DNA from: Blastococcus saxobsidens
Lineage (GTDB): Bacteria > Actinomycetota > Actinomycetes > Mycobacteriales > Geodermatophilaceae
Direction of reading: 5' to 3'
DNA: 64,000 nt
Assembly (NCBI RefSeq): GCF_002938435.1
Contig: NZ_POQT01000020.1
Coordinates: forward strand, 1-64,000
The notes below the pieces were generated by a model, which was not told the origin of the DNA, did no database searches, and saw nothing but the letters and a program-made list of their open reading frames with translations. Within the stretch, counting starts at the first letter, position 1; each line of letters starts with the position of its first letter. The position numbers were made by a program, and so were the translations under genes. This document shows, piece after piece, positions 589-10,666 of this stretch.

Positions 589-1086
589 GTGAGCATGCGC
601 CGGCAGTTCGTCCTGGACGACGTCTCCCGGGCGATCATCGAGCAGCTGCAGGAGGACGGTCGCCGCCCGTACGCCCGCATAGCGGCGGCCGTGGGGCTCT
701 CCGAGGCGGCGGTCCGCCAGCGGGTGCAGCGGCTGCTCGACTCCGGGGTCATGCAGATCGTGGCGGTGACCGATCCGATGCAGGTCGGCTTCTCGCGGCA
801 GGCGATGGTCGGCATCCGCACCAGCGGTGACGCCCGGGTCGTGGCCGAGCGGATCGCGGACTTCGGCGAGGTCGACTACGTCGTCATCACCGCCGGGTCG
901 TTCGACGTGCTGGCCGAGGTCGTCTGCGAGGACGACGACCAGCTGCTCGACGTCGTCGCCCGGATCCGCGGCGTCGACGGGGTGGAGACGACCGAGACCC
1001 ACCTCTACCTGGGGCTGGCCAAGCAGACCTACGCCTGGGGCACCCGGGGCCCGCAGAGCCCGACGTCGTCCGACGCCGGGCTCTGA
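589..1086 (+). CDS. Lrp/AsnC family transcriptional regulator
   Basis: A 165-residue protein of the usual Lrp/AsnC size. Residues about 10-58 form the winged helix-turn-helix (LDDVSRAIIEQLQEDGRRPYARIAAAVG, then SEAAVRQRVQRLLDSG), and residues about 70-145 form the RAM ligand-binding/oligomerisation domain ending in TETHLYLGLAK. The GTG at 589 has a GGGAG ribosome site six bases upstream; ATG 595 is an alternative. The gene converges on the ureohydrolase with only six bases between stop codons. Family members sense amino acids, so control of the neighbouring amino-acid genes is plausible but inferred. Confidence 0.9.
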   Translation: MSMRRQFVLDDVSRAIIEQLQEDGRRPYARIAAAVGLSEAAVRQRVQRLLDSGVMQIVAVTDPMQVGFSRQAMVGIRTSGDARVVAERIADFGEVDYVVITAGSFDVLAEVVCEDDDQLLDVVARIRGVDGVETTETHLYLGLAKQTYAWGTRGPQSPTSSDAGL

Positions 1087-1092
1087 CCCGGC

Positions 1093-2049
1093 TCAGCCCG
1101 CGGCGCGGTTGAGCGCCAGGACCGACAGCAGCTCGTAGCCGACGTGGGCCGCGGCGATGCCGGTGAGCTCGGCGTGGTCGTAGGGCGGGGAGACCTCGAC
1201 GATGTCGGCCCCGACGACGTCGAGCCCGACCAGCCCGCGCAGCGTGTTGAGCAGCTCGCGGCTGGTGAGCCCGCCGGCCTCGGGCGTGCCGGTGCCCGGC
1301 GCGTGCGCGGGGTCGAGGACGTCGATGTCGACCGACACGTAGACCGGTCCACCGGTGAGCCGGCGCCGCATCCGCTCCACGATGCTGCGCACGCCGTCGA
1401 CCTCGTAGTCGTCGGAGCGGATGACCTGGAAGCCGAGGACGGCGTCGTCCTCCAGGTCCTGCTTGCTGTAGAGCGGGCCGCGGATGCCCATGTGCAGCGA
1501 GCGCTCCATGTCGATGAGCCCCTCCTCGCTGGCCCGGCGGAACGGCGTGCCGTGCGTGTAGGGGGCGCCGAAGTAGGTGTCCCACGTGTCGAGGTGGGCG
1601 TCGAAGTGCAGCACGGCGACCGGGCCGTGGTCGCGGGCCAGCGAGCGCAGGATCGGCAGGGCGATCGTGTGGTCGCCGCCGATGGTGAGCAGCTGGGTCC
1701 CGTCCGAGCGCAGCGCGGTGACCTCGCGGTCGATGGTCTCGATCGCCTCACCGAGGTCGAAGGGGTTGACGCCGATGTCCCCGGCGTCGGCCACCTGCTG
1801 GGTCCCGAAGGGGGTGGCGTCCAGTGCCGGGTTGTACGGGCGCAGGAGCTTGGAGCCGGCGCGCACGTGGCCCGGGCCGAAGCGGGCGCCGGGCCGGTAG
1901 CTGACCCCGGTGTCGAAGGGCACCCCGACCACGGCGACGTCGGCACGCGAGACCTCGTCGATCCGCGGCAGCCGGGCGAAGGTCGCCGGGCCGGCATAGC
2001 GGGGGACCCGCGTGGCGTCGACGGGGCCGATCGGGCTCTGCTCCTGCAC
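1093..2049 (-). CDS. Ureohydrolase (agmatinase / guanidinobutyrase type)
   Basis: A 318-residue arginase-superfamily enzyme with all binuclear-manganese ligands visible: GGDH (His127), DAHLD (Asp150, His152, Asp154) and DID (Asp241, Asp243). It hydrolyses a guanidino group to urea plus an amine. The loop after the DAHLD motif ([13 protein letters not shown]) is of the agmatinase/guanidinobutyrase kind rather than arginase. The gene is divergent from the Xre-cupin regulator across 142 bases that carry candidate operators. The amino-acid 2-monooxygenase and amidase remnant nearby suggest 4-guanidinobutyrate as substrate, giving GABA and urea. Substrate choice is inference; the family call is firm. 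Confidence 0.9.
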
Positions 2050-2119
2050 GGGATCTCCTGTGTGCGCGAGGCCGGGTGGTGCGCGGGGGAGCGGATCCCC
2101 CGTCCGGGTCGGAGGCCAC

Positions 2120-2167
2120 TGTCAACTCGTGTTTCTTATTTGTCAACGCCGACGCGGGAACTACTGT
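2120..2167. promoter_or_regulatory. Divergent promoter/operator region of ureohydrolase and Xre-cupin regulator
   Basis: A motif TGTCAACTCGTGTTTC lies at 2120-2135 and TGTCAAC recurs at 2141-2147. For the regulator, TTGTCA (2140-2145) and TACTGT (2162-2167) with a 16-base spacer form a reasonable sigma-70 promoter. A near copy of the 16-base motif, in opposite orientation, lies just after the regulator gene at 2792-2807, so it is a candidate binding site of that regulator. Confidence 0.5.
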
Positions 2168-2191
2168 CCGCCAGGAGACCGGGAGGTGGCG

Positions 2192-2791
2192 ATGGAGGCG
2201 GTGTCCAGCGGTGGCGCGGTGTCCGAGGTGCCGCGCATCGGCGAGCGGCTCAAGGCCGTCCGGCAGGCGCGCCGGCTGACCCTCACCGACGTCGCCGGGG
2301 CGAGCGGGCTGACCAAGGGGTTCCTGAGCAAGCTCGAGCGCGACCAGGCCAGCGCCTCGGTGGCCGCCCTGGTGCGGGTGTGCGCCGTCCTCGGCATCTC
2401 TCCGGGCAGCCTGTTCGAGGCGCCGTCCGGTGGCGAGGCGGTCCGGGCCGGCAGCTACCCGCCCATCGCGTTCGGTGGGCAGGGTCTGACGGAGTACCTG
2501 CTCACGCCCTCCGGGGAGCGCCGGGTGCAGGCCATCCTCTCCGAGATCGCGCCGGGGGGCGGCAGTGGCGAGGAGACCTACGCCCTGCCCGCCGAGGTGG
2601 AGTTCGTGTTCGTGCTCGACGGCGACCTCGAGGTCACGGTCGGCGGGGATGTCACGGTCCTCGGGGCGGGGGACGCCTTCACGTTCTCGCCGGGCTCCCA
2701 GCACGGCTTCCGGTCCCTGCGTACCGACGGCGCGACGCGCGTGCTGTGGGTGTTCGCCCCGGCGCTCTCGGCGGGTCGGACCGCTCCGTAG
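2192..2791 (+). CDS. Xre-family regulator with C-terminal cupin (PuuR/SutR type)
   Basis: A 199-residue protein. Residues about 13-68 form an Xre helix-turn-helix (IGERLKAVRQARRLTLTDVAG, then FLSKLERDQASASVAALVRV). Residues about 120-190 form a small cupin with a PAEVEFVFVLDGDLEVTVGG turn and FTFSPGSQHGF. HTH-cupin regulators of this type control polyamine and amino-acid catabolic genes in other bacteria. ATG 2192 has GGGAGG five bases upstream; the in-frame GTG at 2186 (AGGAGA upstream) is also possible. The gene sits between the ureohydrolase and the monooxygenase operon, and both flanks carry the same candidate operator, so control of both sides and of itself is likely. Confidence 0.88.
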   Translation: MEAVSSGGAVSEVPRIGERLKAVRQARRLTLTDVAGASGLTKGFLSKLERDQASASVAALVRVCAVLGISPGSLFEAPSGGEAVRAGSYPPIAFGGQGLTEYLLTPSGERRVQAILSEIAPGGGSGEETYALPAEVEFVFVLDGDLEVTVGGDVTVLGAGDAFTFSPGSQHGFRSLRTDGATRVLWVFAPALSAGRTAP

Positions 2792-2830
2792 GAAACGTTC
2801 GTTGACACTCAGGCAACCGGTGGCGATGCT
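2792..2830 (+). promoter_or_regulatory. Candidate promoter and operator of the amidase-remnant/monooxygenase operon
   Basis: GAAACGTTCGTTGACA (2792-2807) is, on the other strand, TGTCAACGAACGTTTC. It matches 12 of 16 bases of the site at 2120-2135, with the same outer blocks. Its TTGACA (2802-2807) also serves as a -35 box, with GATGCT (2825-2830) as a poor -10 after 17 bases. An operator over a -35 box would suit a repressor. Confidence 0.45.
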
Positions 2831-2953
2831 CTCTGCGATGCGGACCACGCAGAGACCCGGGGGAGCACCTCCGGGGAGGCAGTGAGCGCCGCCTCCGGCC
2901 CGACACCGTCGCGGCGTCGGCCGGTGCACGAGCCCGGACCGGAGGGGAGAACC

Positions 2954-3250
2954 GTGCGCATCGCACTCTCGCAGGGACCGGCCGAGACGCCCGACCCCGA
3001 GGCCGGGCTGGCCGCGGTCGCGGTCGCTGCCCGGTCGGCCGCGGCGGCCGGCGCCCGGCTGCTGGTCACGCCGGAGATGTCGCTCACCGGTTACGCGATC
3101 GGAGCGGAACGGGTGGCCGAGCTCGCCGAGCCCCTGCCCGAGCTGCTCGTGGTCGACGTCGACCCCGCCGCCCGGACCGCCTGGCGCCGGGTGAACACCC
3201 ACCTGGCCGACCGGCGTCCCGAGCTCTACCTCCCGGAGCAGCCCGCATGA
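2954..3250 (+). pseudogene. Remnant of a DavA-type carbon-nitrogen hydrolase (aminovaleramidase/guanidinobutyramidase) with large in-frame internal deletion
   Basis: From GTG 2954 (GGAGGGGAGA at 2941-2950) the frame encodes 98 residues. Residues 1-60 (MRIALSQG, then LLVTPEMSLTGYAIG and LAEP) match the N-terminus of DavA-type nitrilase-superfamily amidases, including the catalytic Glu in PEM. Residues 61-98 (LLVVDVDPAARTAWRRVN, then HLADRRPELY) match the extreme C-terminus of the same proteins. About 165 central residues, which would hold the catalytic Lys and Cys, are missing without a frame change. Family members are about 265 residues long. The stop overlaps the monooxygenase start (ATGA), so operon structure and translational coupling survive. 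It cannot be an active amidase, but it may still be translated. Confidence 0.8.
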
Positions 3251-4947
3251 CCTCCGCCATCCCGGTCAACGCCCACGAGCCGGGTCAGCAGCGGCCGGCC
3301 CGCCCGCTGACCATGTTCGGCCCGGACTTCCCCTTCGCCTACGACGACTGGCTGGTGCACCCCGCCGGGCTCGGGCAGGTGCCGGTGGACCGGCACGGCA
3401 CCGAGGTCGCGGTCATCGGTGGCGGCCTGTCGGGCATCGTGACCGCGCACGAGCTCGTGAAGCTGGGGCTCAAGCCGGTCGTCTACGAGGCGCACGAGAT
3501 CGGCGGGCGGCTGCGCTCGGTCGGGTTCGAGGGGCACCCGGGCGTGGTGGCCGAGATGGGCGCGATGCGCTTCCCGCCGTCGTCGACCAGCTTCTTCCAC
3601 TACGTGGACGACCTGGGCCTGCCGACCACGCGGTTCCCCAACCCGCTGGACCTGGCGACCCCCAGCACGGTCGTGGACCTCAAGGGGGAGTCGCACTACG
3701 CCCGCACGCTCGACGACCTGCCACCGCTGTACCGGGCGGTCGCCGACGCCTGGCACGAGACCCTGGTCGAGCGTGCGCGCCTGGAGGAGATGCAGGCGGC
3801 GATCCGGAACCGCGACGTCAAGGCGATCAAGGCCGTCTGGGACGACCTGGTCGAGCGGCTCGACGACACCACGTTCTACGGGTTCCTCGCCGCCTCGCCG
3901 GCGTTCAGCTCCTTCCGGCACCGCGAGGTGTTCGGCCAGGTCGGGTTCGGCACCGGCGGCTGGGACACCGACTACCCGAACTCGATGCTGGAGATCCTGC
4001 GGGTCGTCTTCACCGCCGCCGATGACGACCACCTGTCGATCGTCGGAGGCTGCCAGCAGGTGCCGGTGCGGCTGTGGGAGAAGCGGGTCGCGGCGCCGGC
4101 GCACTGGCCGGCTGGCACCAGCCTGGCCGACCTGCACCCCGGCGGGCGACCGCTGCCCGCCGTCACCCGGCTGCACCGGACCGAGCCGGGCAACATCACC
4201 GTCACCGACGAGGCCGGCGGCATCCGCACGTACGCCGCCGCGGTCTTCACCGCGCAGAGCTGGAACCTGCTGTCGCGGATCGTGTGCGACGAGAGCCTGT
4301 TCCCGATCGACCACTGGACGGCGATCGAGCGGACCCACTACATGGGGTCGACGAAGCTGTTCTGCCTGGTCGACCGGCCGTTCTGGAAGGACGTCGACCC
4401 GCAGACCGGGCGGCACCGGATGAGCATGACCCTCACCGACCGGATGACCCGCGGCACCTACCTGCTCGACCAGGGGGAGGGGCGACCGGGGCTGATCTGC
4501 CTGAGCTACACCTGGGCCGACGACTCGCTGAAGTGGCTGCCGCTCTCGGCGACCGAGCGCATGGAGGTCATGCTCGAGTCGCTGCGCGGGATCTACCCGG
4601 ACGTGGACCTGCGCCGGCACATCATCGCCTCGCCGGTGACGGTGTCGTGGGAGTCCGAGCGCGACTACATGGGCGCGTTCAAGGCCAACCTGCCCGGCCA
4701 CTACCGGTACCAGCGGCGGCTGTTCACCCACTTCGTGCAGGACGAGCTGCCGGAGCAGTACCGCGGGCTGTTCCTCGCCGGGGACGACATCTCCTGGACC
4801 GCCGGCTGGGCCGAGGGCGCGGTGCAGACGGCGCTCAACGCCGTGTGGGGCGTGGTGCACCACCTCGGTGGGCGCACCCACCCGGAGAACCCCGGACCGG
4901 GTGACCTCTTCGACGAGCTCGCGCCGGTGCGGTTGCCCGAGGACTGA
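3247..4947 (+). CDS. Flavin-dependent L-amino acid 2-monooxygenase (lysine/arginine/tryptophan 2-monooxygenase family)
   Basis: A 566-residue flavoprotein. The FAD fold starts at about 54 (VAVIGGGLSG, dinucleotide glycines 58/60/63), followed by family signatures EMGAMRFPPSS (103-113), THYMGSTKLF, LSYTWADDSLKWLPL and the C-terminal FAD motif LFLAGDDISWTAGWAEGAVQ. These occur in IaaM tryptophan 2-monooxygenase and DavB lysine 2-monooxygenase, which decarboxylate and oxygenate an amino acid to the one-carbon-shorter amide. The start overlaps the stop of the DavA-like remnant. Two ureohydrolases nearby make arginine (product 4-guanidinobutyramide) an attractive substrate, but lysine or tryptophan cannot be excluded from sequence. 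Confidence 0.85.
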   Translation: MTSAIPVNAHEPGQQRPARPLTMFGPDFPFAYDDWLVHPAGLGQVPVDRHGTEVAVIGGGLSGIVTAHELVKLGLKPVVYEAHEIGGRLRSVGFEGHPGVVAEMGAMRFPPSSTSFFHYVDDLGLPTTRFPNPLDLATPSTVVDLKGESHYARTLDDLPPLYRAVADAWHETLVERARLEEMQAAIRNRDVKAIKAVWDDLVERLDDTTFYGFLAASPAFSSFRHREVFGQVGFGTGGWDTDYPNSMLEILRVVFTAADDDHLSIVGGCQQVPVRLWEKRVAAPAHWPAGTSLADLHPGGRPLPAVTRLHRTEPGNITVTDEAGGIRTYAAAVFTAQSWNLLSRIVCDESLFPIDHWTAIERTHYMGSTKLFCLVDRPFWKDVDPQTGRHRMSMTLTDRMTRGTYLLDQGEGRPGLICLSYTWADDSLKWLPLSATERMEVMLESLRGIYPDVDLRRHIIASPVTVSWESERDYMGAFKANLPGHYRYQRRLFTHFVQDELPEQYRGLFLAGDDISWTAGWAEGAVQTALNAVWGVVHHLGGRTHPENPGPGDLFDELAPVRLPED

Positions 4948-5102
4948 CCTCCGGCTGCGGAGTGCCGGTCGGCGAACGTCGCACGCAGCCTTACCAACCT
5001 GACACGCCGCCTCGCCGCCGAGCCGCCGCCCCTTCCGCTCGACACCTGTCAACCTTCGGCTGGGCGGCACGGGTCGCGCCCGGACCACCGCGGCACGGGT
5101 GG

Positions 5103-6620
5103 TCAGAACGGTGGCGGGTCGTCGTCCGAGGTGGAGCCGGCCGGTGTGCTCTCCGGCTGCGGTGGCTCGGCTGGTTCGGGTGGCTCCGGGGGCTCCGGTG
5201 GCCGTGCCCGCATGCCGGGTGGCCGGGTGGTGCGGGTGACCCCGGACGGCGTGGTCACGTGCAGCGTGCCGTCGTCCTCCATGACGAATCGCCAGCCGGG
5301 GGCGAGGGTCTTGAGCCGGTGGTGGCTCCGGCACAGGCAGCAGAGGTTGGCGCAGTCGGTGGCTCCGCCGGCGGCGTGCGGAACCACGTGGTCGCGGTCG
5401 GTCCACCCGACCCGCTGTCCGCAGTTGGGCATGCGACAGCCGCGGTCGCGGGTGGTGAGGAACAGATCCTGGGCGCCGGTGGGCGTGTAGGCATCCGTCG
5501 GCGCCGGCCGACCGAGCACCGTGCAGCCGCAGCCGTCCCCGTGGGCGGCGCATCCCCGCCGGGCGAGCCGCTGCAGCTGCTCCGGAGTGGCGGTTGCCAG
5601 CAGTCGCCCGTTGGCATCGGTGAGCGCGAGGGTGAGAGAACCGCCTTCGGGCGTCTGCAGACCCAGCGCGCCGATCCGTCGCAGCAGATCGCAGACGTGC
5701 GCTGCGGTGATGGGAAACCCGCCCACCGACCCCGCCGTCGCCGAGCCGCCTTCGAGGGCGTCGAGGGCGGCGGTGACGGTGACGTGCGCTTGGACGGCGG
5801 GCAGGCCGTGCCCAGCCGGGCGGCGCAGCAGCAGGGAGAACACTTCTGCGCGGATCTGCCCGATCGGCCGCGGGTCGCCGTCGGCTTTCGCCATGCGCGC
5901 CAGCCGGTCGATCAGGTCGTAGCTCTCGGCGGCCTCGTCGGCGGGCAGCTCGGCGGCGAGGGTGGCCATGCCCTCCAGGTGCGAGGGGTGGCTGCGCACG
6001 TCGGCGTGCCGGCGGGCGTCCTTCCGACGGGCATCTATGGCCTCCGCGTCGAGCGCCAGGAGCAGCTCGAGTGCCCGGGCGTGCAGCCGGGCCCTGGACA
6101 TCTCGGTCGCGTCCGGCAGCAGGCGCGACTCGATCTGCCGGGCGATGTCCGGCGAGGTGTGCTGCAGGACGTCGGCGAGCACCTTCGCTCGCCCTTCGTC
6201 CAGGGTGCCGTCGGCCATGGCCGCCCACGTGGCCGGGAGGCTCTCCCGGTAGATCCACGCCCGGTGCGCCAGGTGGGAGGCCGCACCGCGGCCGATGTTG
6301 AGCACGACGGCCAGTTCGGCTGGGAAGAACTGCGACACCCCGGGCGGCTGGGTGTCCGGCGCCCACGAACCCTTCCGCGCTCCCGGGTGGTCCGGCGACG
6401 GGTCGAGGGTGTCGGGGGTGTCCTCGGCCAGGCCGAGGATCAGCTCCGTCTCGTACGCGGCGTCCATGGCCTTGCGGGCCTGCAGCCGCTGCAGCTCGGC
6501 AGCCTTCTCCTGCTTCGTCAGCACGCCGACCGGAAGTCGCGCGCTCGTCGGCGGCCGGCCGAGGAACCACCCCACCAGGCCGGCCTCCAGCGGCGAGCGC
6601 ACGGTGCCGGCTGCTGTCAT
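5103..6620 (-). CDS. DUF222 / HNH endonuclease domain protein (13E12-repeat family)
   Basis: A 505-residue protein. The N-terminal three-quarters is a DUF222 region. Residues 395-437 form an HNH/zinc module (CRMPNC, DHVVPHAAGGATDCANLCC, SHHRLK; His411, His433-434), followed by a proline-rich tail with PPEP repeats. Such genes are multicopy in actinobacteria, and some mycobacterial members are SOS-induced. Their role is unsettled; the HNH motif implies nicking or cleaving DNA. The ATG at 6620 lies inside the palindrome holding the SOS box with no separate ribosome site, so the mRNA may be leaderless. It is transcribed alone and convergent to the monooxygenase. Confidence 0.85.
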   Translation of the reverse strand: MTAAGTVRSPLEAGLVGWFLGRPPTSARLPVGVLTKQEKAAELQRLQARKAMDAAYETELILGLAEDTPDTLDPSPDHPGARKGSWAPDTQPPGVSQFFPAELAVVLNIGRGAASHLAHRAWIYRESLPATWAAMADGTLDEGRAKVLADVLQHTSPDIARQIESRLLPDATEMSRARLHARALELLLALDAEAIDARRKDARRHADVRSHPSHLEGMATLAAELPADEAAESYDLIDRLARMAKADGDPRPIGQIRAEVFSLLLRRPAGHGLPAVQAHVTVTAALDALEGGSATAGSVGGFPITAAHVCDLLRRIGALGLQTPEGGSLTLALTDANGRLLATATPEQLQRLARRGCAAHGDGCGCTVLGRPAPTDAYTPTGAQDLFLTTRDRGCRMPNCGQRVGWTDRDHVVPHAAGGATDCANLCCLCRSHHRLKTLAPGWRFVMEDDGTLHVTTPSGVTRTTRPPGMRARPPEPPEPPEPAEPPQPESTPAGSTSDDDPPPF

Positions 6621-6800: not shown

Positions 6801-7217
6801 CTACGCGGTTCGGCGGACCGCCGAGCCCGTCCGCGCGGAGGCGAGGGTGAGCACCGCCGAGCCTGCGCGCACGGCGGCCAGGACCAAGGCCGCCACTGCC
6901 AGTCCGCCGGCGACCGGGCCGGCCCAGGCGGCGAGCTCGGGGGCCGCATGCGCCGCGTGGCCGGTGAGCACGGGCGGGTGGGCGACGAGCATCGCCGTCG
7001 TCAGCACGACGTGCGCCGCCCACGCCACCGGCCCCGGCCGTCGGAACAGGTGCACCGCGCACAACAGGCACGCCAGGACCAGGGCGGCGGTCGCCGTCGT
7101 GCCGGGGTGCGGCGCCGCGGCCAGCGCCAGGCCGTGCACGGCGGCGCAGCCCGCGGCGGCCCCCGCCGCACTCCGGGCGAGGAACCGCGGCAGCGCGGCG
7201 GGGCCGAGCGGCTCCAT
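6801..7217 (-). CDS. Small integral membrane protein of the amine oxidase operon
   Basis: A 138-residue, Ala/Leu/Val-rich protein with about four hydrophobic segments (near residues 12-34, 40-60, 66-87 and 96-125). No recognised domain. Its ATG shares a base with the stop of the amine oxidase gene (TGATG), so the two are translationally coupled and it is the last gene of the operon. It could be a membrane partner or anchor for the oxidase or a transport helper; nothing in the sequence decides. Reality of the gene is supported by coupling and by the coherent membrane pattern. Confidence 0.6.
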   Translation of the reverse strand: MEPLGPAALPRFLARSAAGAAAGCAAVHGLALAAAPHPGTTATAALVLACLLCAVHLFRRPGPVAWAAHVVLTTAMLVAHPPVLTGHAAHAAPELAAWAGPVAGGLAVAALVLAAVRAGSAVLTLASARTGSAVRRTA

Positions 7218-9157
7218 CAGTGGCAGCGACCCGGGGCCGGCGGCACGTCGAGCGCGGGGTTGCGGTCGAAGAACCCGACCGGCTTGAGCTCGAACGAGAC
7301 GACGTCCACCGGCATGACCGGCCAGTCCTCGGGGCGCGGCACGTGGTGGATGCCGAACACGTGCCACAGGACGACGTCGGTGTCGGTCAGCGGCCGGTCG
7401 GCCTTCTGCCACTCCGGCAGGCCCTCGTCCCGGCGGCTCTGGTTGCAGAACTCGCCGGACGGCCAGCGCTCCTCCTCGTCGAAGCGGCTGACCCACACCG
7501 GGTGGTCGATGACCTGCGCCCGCTGCCGGAACGGCGCATCCGGGTGCGCCATGGAGGGCAGCGCCGAGGTCGGGTAGAGCTTGTAGCCGGGCGCCGTCCC
7601 GAGGCGGTTGGGCTTGGTCCGGTTGACCACCTTGAACGACCGCTGGGTGGCGAAGTCGAGGTCCAGGCGGCCCTCGGCCTCGGTCTCCACCGGCCGGCTG
7701 CGGGTGACCACGGCCAGCCCGTGCGGGTTGTCCTCCGACATCGGCAGCGCTTCGCTCTCGGTGACGACGACGGTGTTCTCCGGCCCGTCCACCTCCATGT
7801 CCAGCCGCGCGACGATGAAGTGCTGGTGGATCGGCGCGTAGGTGCGCTCGTCGACGACGGTGCCGTACGGCGGCGCGTCCCCCTCGAAGGCGCTGGTCAC
7901 CATGATCCCGGTGGCGCGGACCTCGCACTGGATCGTGCCGTCCTGGTAGAAGCGCCAGTAGGTGAGGTACTCGTAGTTCGCCACCGTGGCGTGGAAGGAC
8001 ACCACCATCCGCCGCGACCGGCGCACCTCGGACCCCGCCTGCTCGTCGACGTGCTTCCACAGCACGCCGTCGTCCTCCTCGTGGAGGCAGATGGCGTTCT
8101 CGATCGTGTAGGGCTCGCCGCGGGTGTCGTGCAGCACGGCGTCGACGTAGGTGATGTCGCCCAGGCAGTCGCAGCCGAGCTTGAGCGACGTCGTCATGTT
8201 GCCCAGGCCCCACTCGCCGGCGTCGAACGCGGTGCGCCGGTGGTGGTCGGGGCTGGGGTCTCGGTAGGGCACGACCATCTCGGCGAAGGACATCCGGTGG
8301 GCGACCGGCCGGCCGTCGTACTCCAGCCGGTGGATGACCAGGCCCTCGCGGTAGTTGAAGCCCAGCCGCATCGTCCACTTCTGCCAGCGCAGCTCGTGGC
8401 CGTCCAGGGCGAAGGAGACGCCCTCGGGCTGGATGATCTCCAGCGCCTTGACGTCGGTGCGCTGCTGCAGGCCCGGGACCAGTGACGGCACGTACTCACC
8501 CATCACCGCCGGTTCGGCCGGCGGCGCGGTGTCCTCGATCTGCAGCAGCTCCATCGTGTTGAGGTCGACGACGAAGTGCAGGCCCATGACCGGGTTGGCG
8601 TAGGGGTTGGCGTTCGGTGCGGAGCGGCGCCACACGTCGGTCCAGCCGACCCGGCGGTCCTGGAACCCCTGCGGGATGAGCGAGTGGCCGTAGGCCCAGG
8701 TGTCGATGAGCACCAGGTCCAGGTCGGTGATGCCGCGCTTCGCGAGGGCGGCGACCACGTCGGGGTGCCGGATCAGCACCTCGTGCGCCTCGTGCCACTC
8801 GTCGACGGTCATGTTGGCCTGCTGGCCGGGCACGGCCTCCCACGAGACGACGGCGTCGTCGGTGAGCGACACGACCGCCTTGTAAGGGACGCCCTCGTCG
8901 CGGCTCCAGGCGGTGACCCGGGCCTCGCGGCGGACGGGGTCACCGGCACGGAAGGCGCGGACGACGTCCTTGGCCGGCTCGCGCAGCTCGATGGCGGCGA
9001 ACCGCCAGCGCTCGTCGACGCCCTTGTCGCGGCGCAGGACCGCCGCGGCGGCGCGGAACTCGTCGGCGGTCAGCGGGTCCAGCGGGTGCGGGGTGCCGGG
9101 AGCCGCCGGGGCACTGGCGGTGCCGGAGCCGTGGCACGACGGCGCGGACTCGGTCAT
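7217..9157 (-). CDS. Copper-containing primary amine oxidase
   Basis: A 646-residue protein of typical bacterial copper amine oxidase length. The tyrosine that becomes the topaquinone cofactor is Tyr395 in TVANYEY. The catalytic base is Asp312 in AFDAGEWGLG. Copper ligands are His444 and His446 (HQHF) plus the histidine of the C-terminal GIHHVPRPEDWPVMP block. It oxidises primary amines to aldehydes with release of ammonia and hydrogen peroxide. No export signal is seen. It overlaps the upstream ureohydrolase (ATGA) and the downstream membrane gene. With a ureohydrolase partner, agmatine or putrescine is a sensible substrate, giving 4-guanidinobutanal or 4-aminobutanal; tyramine or phenethylamine are alternatives. 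Confidence 0.93.
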   Translation of the reverse strand: MTESAPSCHGSGTASAPAAPGTPHPLDPLTADEFRAAAAVLRRDKGVDERWRFAAIELREPAKDVVRAFRAGDPVRREARVTAWSRDEGVPYKAVVSLTDDAVVSWEAVPGQQANMTVDEWHEAHEVLIRHPDVVAALAKRGITDLDLVLIDTWAYGHSLIPQGFQDRRVGWTDVWRRSAPNANPYANPVMGLHFVVDLNTMELLQIEDTAPPAEPAVMGEYVPSLVPGLQQRTDVKALEIIQPEGVSFALDGHELRWQKWTMRLGFNYREGLVIHRLEYDGRPVAHRMSFAEMVVPYRDPSPDHHRRTAFDAGEWGLGNMTTSLKLGCDCLGDITYVDAVLHDTRGEPYTIENAICLHEEDDGVLWKHVDEQAGSEVRRSRRMVVSFHATVANYEYLTYWRFYQDGTIQCEVRATGIMVTSAFEGDAPPYGTVVDERTYAPIHQHFIVARLDMEVDGPENTVVVTESEALPMSEDNPHGLAVVTRSRPVETEAEGRLDLDFATQRSFKVVNRTKPNRLGTAPGYKLYPTSALPSMAHPDAPFRQRAQVIDHPVWVSRFDEEERWPSGEFCNQSRRDEGLPEWQKADRPLTDTDVVLWHVFGIHHVPRPEDWPVMPVDVVSFELKPVGFFDRNPALDVPPAPGRCH

Positions 9158-10194
9158 GACGGGTTCTCCTGGGTGGTGTCGGGGCGGTCCGCGAGCAGGG
9201 GGAGGGACGGGTCCCAGCGGGTGCCGTCGCGGGCGTCGCGGCGGCGCCGGGCGATCGCCGACAGCGCCTCGAGGACGACCCGGTTGGCCAGTGCTGCGGT
9301 GATGTCGGCGTGGTCGTAGGGCGGGCTGACCTCGACGACGTCGACGCCGACGACCGGCAGCTCCAGGCAGATGCGGCGCACGGAGTCCAGCAGCTGGCGC
9401 GCCGAGAGCCCGCCCGGCTCGGGGGTGCCGGTCCCGGGCGCGTGGCCGGGGTCGCAGACGTCGATGTCGACGGAGAGGAAGACGCCCTCGCACTCGTCGG
9501 TGGCGATGCCGAACGCCTCGGTCAGGCAGTCGGTGAGCCCGCGGTGGACGATCTCGGTCATCTCGTAGCTGCGCATGCGCTGCCCGGCCATCCAGTCCAG
9601 CGTCTCCGGCGGCGGCCAGTAGCCGCGCAGGCCGATCTGCAGGAACCGGTCGCCGCGCAGCGCGCCGGACTCGATGAGCCGGCGCATCGGCTGGCCGTGG
9701 CCCCACAGCGAGCCGAACTCGATGTCGCCGGTGTCGGCGTGGGCGTCGAAGTGCAGCATCGACACGCGGCCGTGCCCGAGCACGTTGGCCACGCCCTTGG
9801 CGTCGGCGAAGGCGATCGAGTGGTCACCGCCGAGCACGACGGGGATCGCCCCGGAGCGGGCCACCTTCTCCACGGCCCGCTCCAGCGCGGGCAGCGCCGT
9901 CTCGATGTCGCCGGAGTACATCTCGACGTCCCCGGCGTCGAGCACCCGCAGGTCGCGCAGCCCGTCGGTGCGCAGCGCCAGGCTGGGCCGGGACCCGTCG
10001 TGCGGCAGGTAGTCGGTCATCCGGATCGCCTGCGGGCCGAAGCGGGTACCGGGACGGTGTGACGTGCCGCCGTCGAACGGCGCCCCGAGGACGACGACGT
10101 CGGCGTCGGCGTAGGACGCCGGGTCGTCGAGGTCGCAGCGGTCGACGCCGAGGAAGGTGATGTCGGGGCCGAACTGGGGGCCGTAGCGGGTCAT
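9154..10194 (-). CDS. Ureohydrolase (agmatinase / guanidinobutyrase / guanidinopropionase type), second copy
   Basis: From ATG 10194 the protein has 346 residues. Metal ligands are His125 (LGGDH), Asp150, His152 and Asp154 (FDAHAD), and Asp243 and Asp245 (VDID). The family signature [19 protein letters not shown] is intact. It is only moderately similar to the ureohydrolase at 1093-2049, and the specificity loop differs (HADTGDIEFGSLWGHGQP), so the two probably act on different guanidino compounds. It is the first gene of the operon with the copper amine oxidase. An in-frame start at 10254 would add 20 residues; neither has a strong ribosome site. Divergent from the APC permease. Confidence 0.88.
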   Translation of the reverse strand: MTRYGPQFGPDITFLGVDRCDLDDPASYADADVVVLGAPFDGGTSHRPGTRFGPQAIRMTDYLPHDGSRPSLALRTDGLRDLRVLDAGDVEMYSGDIETALPALERAVEKVARSGAIPVVLGGDHSIAFADAKGVANVLGHGRVSMLHFDAHADTGDIEFGSLWGHGQPMRRLIESGALRGDRFLQIGLRGYWPPPETLDWMAGQRMRSYEMTEIVHRGLTDCLTEAFGIATDECEGVFLSVDIDVCDPGHAPGTGTPEPGGLSARQLLDSVRRICLELPVVGVDVVEVSPPYDHADITAALANRVVLEALSAIARRRRDARDGTRWDPSLPLLADRPDTTQENPS

Positions 10195-10666
10195 CGCTCG
10201 AAGTCCGATCGGTCGTGCGGTGGGGGGATCCGTCGTGCGGGTGAAGCTTCGCACGGTGCCTGCGCCACGGGTGGCGGCTCACACGCCACGTTCGACGGAA
10301 TCAGTTGCGTCAGCGAGGGTAAGCCACGGATCGCGTCGGCACCACGGTCGTCCACTGCGGTTCCGAGGATCGGGTGACGTCGAGCGGTCCGCCGCCCCCG
10401 GCTCCCGGGCGTGCGCCGGCGAATCTGCCGGATCTCCAACGGATAACGATTGTCCGACGGCGATACGCCGACGAAACAGTCGTCGGGCATCCTCTCGGCG
10501 CCGGGATCCGTGATCCACCTCTCGTGCCGGACCGTCGATGCCGTCGGCGGTCGGTGTACGAGGCGGAGTCTTCCCCCAGGGGGCGGGTGGCTGGCTGGCT
10601 TCACTGTGATCCGGCGCACAGGCCGGCACCGGACGCGCGCCACGCCGGCGCGACGAGGAGGACCGC
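10195..10666. promoter_or_regulatory. Divergent intergenic region between ureohydrolase-amine oxidase operon and APC permease
   Basis: No gene is supported in these 472 bases. The strongest structure is CCGACGA-AACAG-TCGTCGG (10468-10486), a perfect 7-bp inverted repeat. An imperfect palindrome centred on CGGCGATACGCCG (10458-10470) directly abuts and overlaps it. These are candidate operators for a regulator controlling both divergent units. The 16-base motif next to the Xre-cupin gene was not found here. A strong ribosome site (GAGGAGGA) precedes the permease ATG. Confidence 0.4.

Follow-up and report, generated by a model that had tools for sequence, protein, structure and literature searches.

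In Streptomyces, an arginine monooxygenase yields 4-guanidinobutyramide, which a hydrolase converts into 4-guanidinobutyrate (PMC5082578). In the DavB-DavA lysine route, the DavA amidase (5-aminovaleramidase), which belongs to the nitrilase superfamily, performs the same type of reaction on the amide produced by a related monooxygenase. Amide hydrolysis in this superfamily needs a cysteine nucleophile and a lysine. The window analysed here, a stretch of 64,000 nucleotides of DNA from the soil bacterium Blastococcus saxobsidens (contig NZ_POQT01000020.1), harbors an amidase gene of the same superfamily, which resembles the Streptomyces 4-guanidinobutyramide hydrolase gene by its position beside the genes of a basic-amino-acid monooxygenase and, in this family, a guanidinobutyrase-like ureohydrolase, but from which the central 501 bp are missing, together with the codons of the catalytic Lys and Cys. 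We propose, with a probability of about 85%, that this gene results from a single spontaneous 501-bp in-frame deletion, i.e., from an ordinary gene loss in one Blastococcus lineage that spared the next gene. The features of the locus are listed in the table.

Features of the amidase remnant and its neighbors (positions in the window)
Feature	Positions	Strand	Basis
Lrp/AsnC-family regulator	595..1086	+	Pfam
Ureohydrolase nearest guanidinobutyrase	1093..2049	-	PDB 3nio best match, E 7e-86; agmatinase 1.5e-60; synteny
XRE-cupin (PuuR-like) regulator	2192..2791	+	Pfam HTH_31/HTH_3 + Cupin_2; conserved neighbor
Ribosome-binding-like GGAGGGGAG 5' of the remnant's GTG	2941..2949	+	Read from sequence
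98-codon in-frame amidase remnant, probable 4-guanidinobutyramide hydrolase	2954..3250	+	CN_hydrolase match; two-piece match to 265-aa orthologue
N-terminal 60 codons kept, including catalytic Glu41 (PEMSLTG)	2954..3133	+	tblastn with full-length orthologue, residues 1-60, 88% identity; Glu in 80/80
Deletion junction; the relatives' 501 bp absent	3134..3142 (about)	+	DNA alignment with L043-L046; microhomology of a few bases at most
C-terminal 36 codons kept	3140..3247	+	tblastn with full-length orthologue, residues 230-265, 81% identity
GGAG 8 nt 5' of the monooxygenase ATG + ATGA stop/start overlap	3235..3250	+	Alignment; both kept in four close relatives
FAD amino-acid 2-monooxygenase/oxidase of the basic amino-acid type, intact; probably an arginine monooxygenase	3247..4947	+	PDB 3we0, E 2.4e-226

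An earlier sequence-only reading of this DNA had described a DavA-type amidase shortened in frame, with its first 60 and last 38 residues directly joined. The in-frame deletion was confirmed by the match to the Pfam CN_hydrolase profile (PF00795; 30.8 bits for a cut-off of 23.2; E 2.3e-7), which establishes homology to the family, by the two-piece tblastn match and by the DNA alignment with the relatives. The open reading frame, which starts with GTG, consists of approximately the first 60-61 codons of a nitrilase-superfamily amidase fused in frame to about its last 36, so that the N-terminal count stood while the C-terminal one had to be lowered from 38 to about 36. As had also been noticed, the segments bearing the catalytic Lys and Cys (K111 and C145 in the orthologue) are gone; the catalytic Glu (E41) is kept. 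With the Glu-Lys-Cys triad thus incomplete and the nucleophile lost, the remnant cannot hydrolyse amides, and its 98 residues do not make up the complete alpha-beta-beta-alpha fold of about 260 residues. A structure model that took intact homologues as alignment predicted three strands and a few helices (pLDDT 80; pTM 0.62), so that the product might conceivably fold as a stub. For the full-length orthologue, a model computed from its sequence alone was of poor quality (pLDDT 44) and was set aside. We consider it highly improbable that the remnant is translated into a 98-residue protein that adopts a small two-piece nitrilase-like domain and is retained as a leader peptide or a non-catalytic partner setting the translation or the activity of the monooxygenase.

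The following lines of evidence show that the short form is derived and specific to this lineage. First, relatives keep a full-length amidase with its catalytic triad. The closest orthologous locus, that of Blastococcus sp. TBT05-19 (L012/L043), has the same neighbors in the same order and a monooxygenase 92% identical to that of the window; its amidase shares the start and the ATGA overlap of the remnant but is 265 residues long with a complete triad. Exactly 501 bp (167 codons) are therefore missing from the window gene, and the alignment with three Geodermatophilus loci revealed the same deletion. Among the best 80 monooxygenase orthologues in our one-genome-per-species data, which are dominated by Streptomyces and also cover Geodermatophilus, Amycolatopsis, Rhodococcus and others, an amidase gene lies just upstream of the monooxygenase gene in every case, and Glu, Lys and Cys are all present in each of these 80 amidases, the window gene being the only one devoid of Lys and Cys. 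No ancestral short amidase family was found among these 80 loci or in the genus, which removes the possibility that the short form is an old family of its own. Second, no direct repeat of at least 14 nt spans the deletion ends. Third, the missing 501 bp were not found elsewhere in the genome's own assembly, where the sole real match was a paralogue on contig C8 (70% DNA identity). Since relatives carry the undamaged orthologue at this locus and the loss in the window is derived, the gene is a remnant formed by deletion.

Two of the relatives' loci differ from this pattern in other respects. In Streptomyces sp. GKU 895 (L078), the reading frame of the amidase gene is interrupted toward the 3' end (5849-5855 of that locus), possibly through a sequencing error, but the triad is kept. 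In another Blastococcus genome (G005), whose monooxygenase is 86% identical to that of the window, the pathway genes are reordered (G005:C10:81520-87231; L123) as transporter, luciferase-like oxidoreductase, monooxygenase and, about 3.2 kb downstream and hence not adjacent, a full amidase (73% identical).

The same observations bear on the idea that the junction is an assembly artefact and that the true gene is full length. This idea draws on the occurrence of the full-length gene in all 80 relatives and on the nature of the assembly, a draft in 86 contigs in which the window begins at the first base of an 81.5-kb contig, which leaves about 3 kb between the remnant locus and that end of the contig. 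However, a collapse requires a repeat, and none of at least 14 nt spans the break points; the missing 501 bp occur in no other contig; an error would have been exactly in frame with a chance of only 1 in 3; and the completeness of the genome is listed as 100%. As far as can be judged from the assembled sequence, a collapse is contradicted. An assembly error at 2954-3250 is thus unlikely, and we give very little credence to a full-length gene hidden behind it.

We propose that one spontaneous event deleted amidase codons 62-228 or so after the split from the TBT05-19 lineage. The ancestral amidase would probably have been a 4-guanidinobutyramide hydrolase operating in an arginine monooxygenase-amidase-guanidinobutyrase cluster, and the remnant product, devoid of Lys and Cys, can have no amidase activity. 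As the deletion preserves the frame and the Shine-Dalgarno-like GGAG and the ATGA overlap lie in the kept 3' end, the monooxygenase should still be translatable and the lesion non-polar. Amide hydrolysis, if still needed, would come from another amidase, most plausibly from the 51%-identical copy on C8. The locus would thus represent a clean natural case of an apparently non-polar in-frame deletion, in which one pathway enzyme was lost and the overlapping next gene was kept; it is an ordinary recent gene remnant and not a new kind of system.

The neighborhood also led us to revise the likely pathway of the cluster from lysine to arginine. The presence next door of a ureohydrolase nearest to guanidinobutyrase points to the arginine route, and both this gene and the XRE-cupin regulator gene are found alongside the amidase and monooxygenase genes in Geodermatophilus and Rhodococcus. 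The best NCBIfam match of this regulator is PuuR, under its cut-off, and no sigma-70-type promoter was found within 2050-5110. A search of the same genome for another amidase, as had been suggested, identified a second pair on C8 (G000:C8:60070-62510; L124: 8065-10541), which comprises an intact lysine-type monooxygenase gene and, directly downstream, an intact DavA-like amidase gene (G000:C8:61734-62510) whose product is 51% identical to the lost amidase. The two monooxygenases are 59% identical. That of C8 is far closer to the lysine enzyme 3we0 (1019 bits, against 756 for that of the window, which is the more distant of the two paralogues) and shares its substrate-site stretch, so that C8 most likely encodes the true Dav-type pair of this genome. 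The window pair, a separate paralogue located next to a guanidinobutyrase-like gene, is therefore distinct from the pair of the DavB-DavA lysine route; it is most likely of the arginine type, the name DavA-type is probably wrong for it, and the remnant is probably a former 4-guanidinobutyramide hydrolase gene.

The monooxygenase of the window is intact and, judging from its dN/dS of about 0.19 relative to its orthologue, under purifying selection. Comparison of the sequences showed that the equivalent of Asp238, the residue for basic side chains, is conserved. The equivalent of Cys254, the residue controlling the balance between oxidase and monooxygenase activities in the Pseudomonas enzyme, is an Ala in the window and in four close relatives. 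If the monooxygenase now operated mainly as an oxidase, or if the amide were routed elsewhere, the amidase would have become dispensable; this is compatible with the deletion, for which it would provide the reason, and we regard it as rather unlikely. It is in line with the finding that a related monooxygenase has both oxidase and monooxygenase activities (PMC5832979), and with five other Blastococcus genomes (G007, G014, G015, G016 and G021; L020, L015, L017, L016 and L021, respectively) that possess the paralogous lysine-type monooxygenase and in which no amidase of more than 45% identity was found genome-wide; a monooxygenase with no close amidase thus seems tolerated in the genus. The Ala at the Cys254 site is not specific to the lineage, however, since the four relatives that share it keep their amidase.

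The claim that the ribosome-binding site and the ATGA overlap with the monooxygenase gene remain was borne out (GGAGGGGAG at 2941-2949; ATGA at 3247-3250), and it raises the question of whether selection keeps the remnant as a translated leader, ribosomes re-initiating at the ATGA and thereby setting the level of the monooxygenase. We view this as improbable. In its favor, the deletion is in frame (a chance of 1 in 3), the gene still has its ribosome site, its 3' end and the stop/start overlap, the dN/dS of the kept parts is still about 0.24, and ATGA overlaps are reported to couple translation in bacteria (PMC6728339). However, these coupling features were inherited unchanged from the intact gene and thus say nothing about a new selection; the monooxygenase gene has its own GGAG; and most of the orthologous amidase-monooxygenase pairs do not overlap (a spacing of -4 occurs in 12 of the 80). 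Moreover, substitutions such as L74R and S77W affect near-invariant positions of the remnant, and the dip of synonymous variation at the amidase end is not unusual for the operon, as it was reached by a fraction of 0.96 of the permutations. The idea of a mini-gene retained for coupling therefore received no positive support.

Two candidate signals were rejected in this region. Low synonymous variation at the amidase end of the four intact relatives had pointed to a conserved nucleotide signal, but permutations expect such dips, and an RNA structure at the junction was unconvincing (z = -1.9).

Regarding the fate of the remnant after the deletion, five changes (L6S, R28S, A67V, L74R and S77W) fall at otherwise conserved positions, whereas the corresponding counts for the four most closely related intact genes are 0, 0, 0 and 1; this hints at relaxed constraint. 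The rate of amino-acid change on the window branch is higher in the remnant (7/94) than in the monooxygenase (14/566; P = 0.02). The ratios of nonsynonymous to synonymous changes did not bear out relaxed selection, as those of the kept parts do not differ between the window (7:7) and the intact relatives (9:12), and the difference between the remnant (7:7) and its own monooxygenase (14:33) is not significant (P = 0.21). Decay is thus not demonstrated. The deletion may be fairly young, the sequence data neither proving decay nor supporting retention as a leader.

Near the arginine cluster, the gene of a primary-amine (copper) oxidase (7217-9157, minus strand) adjoins a second arginase-family gene (9256-10212, minus strand), the product of which is 39% identical to that of the gene at 1093-2049. 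A copper amine oxidase gene also occurs near the cluster in TBT05-19 and in two Geodermatophilus.
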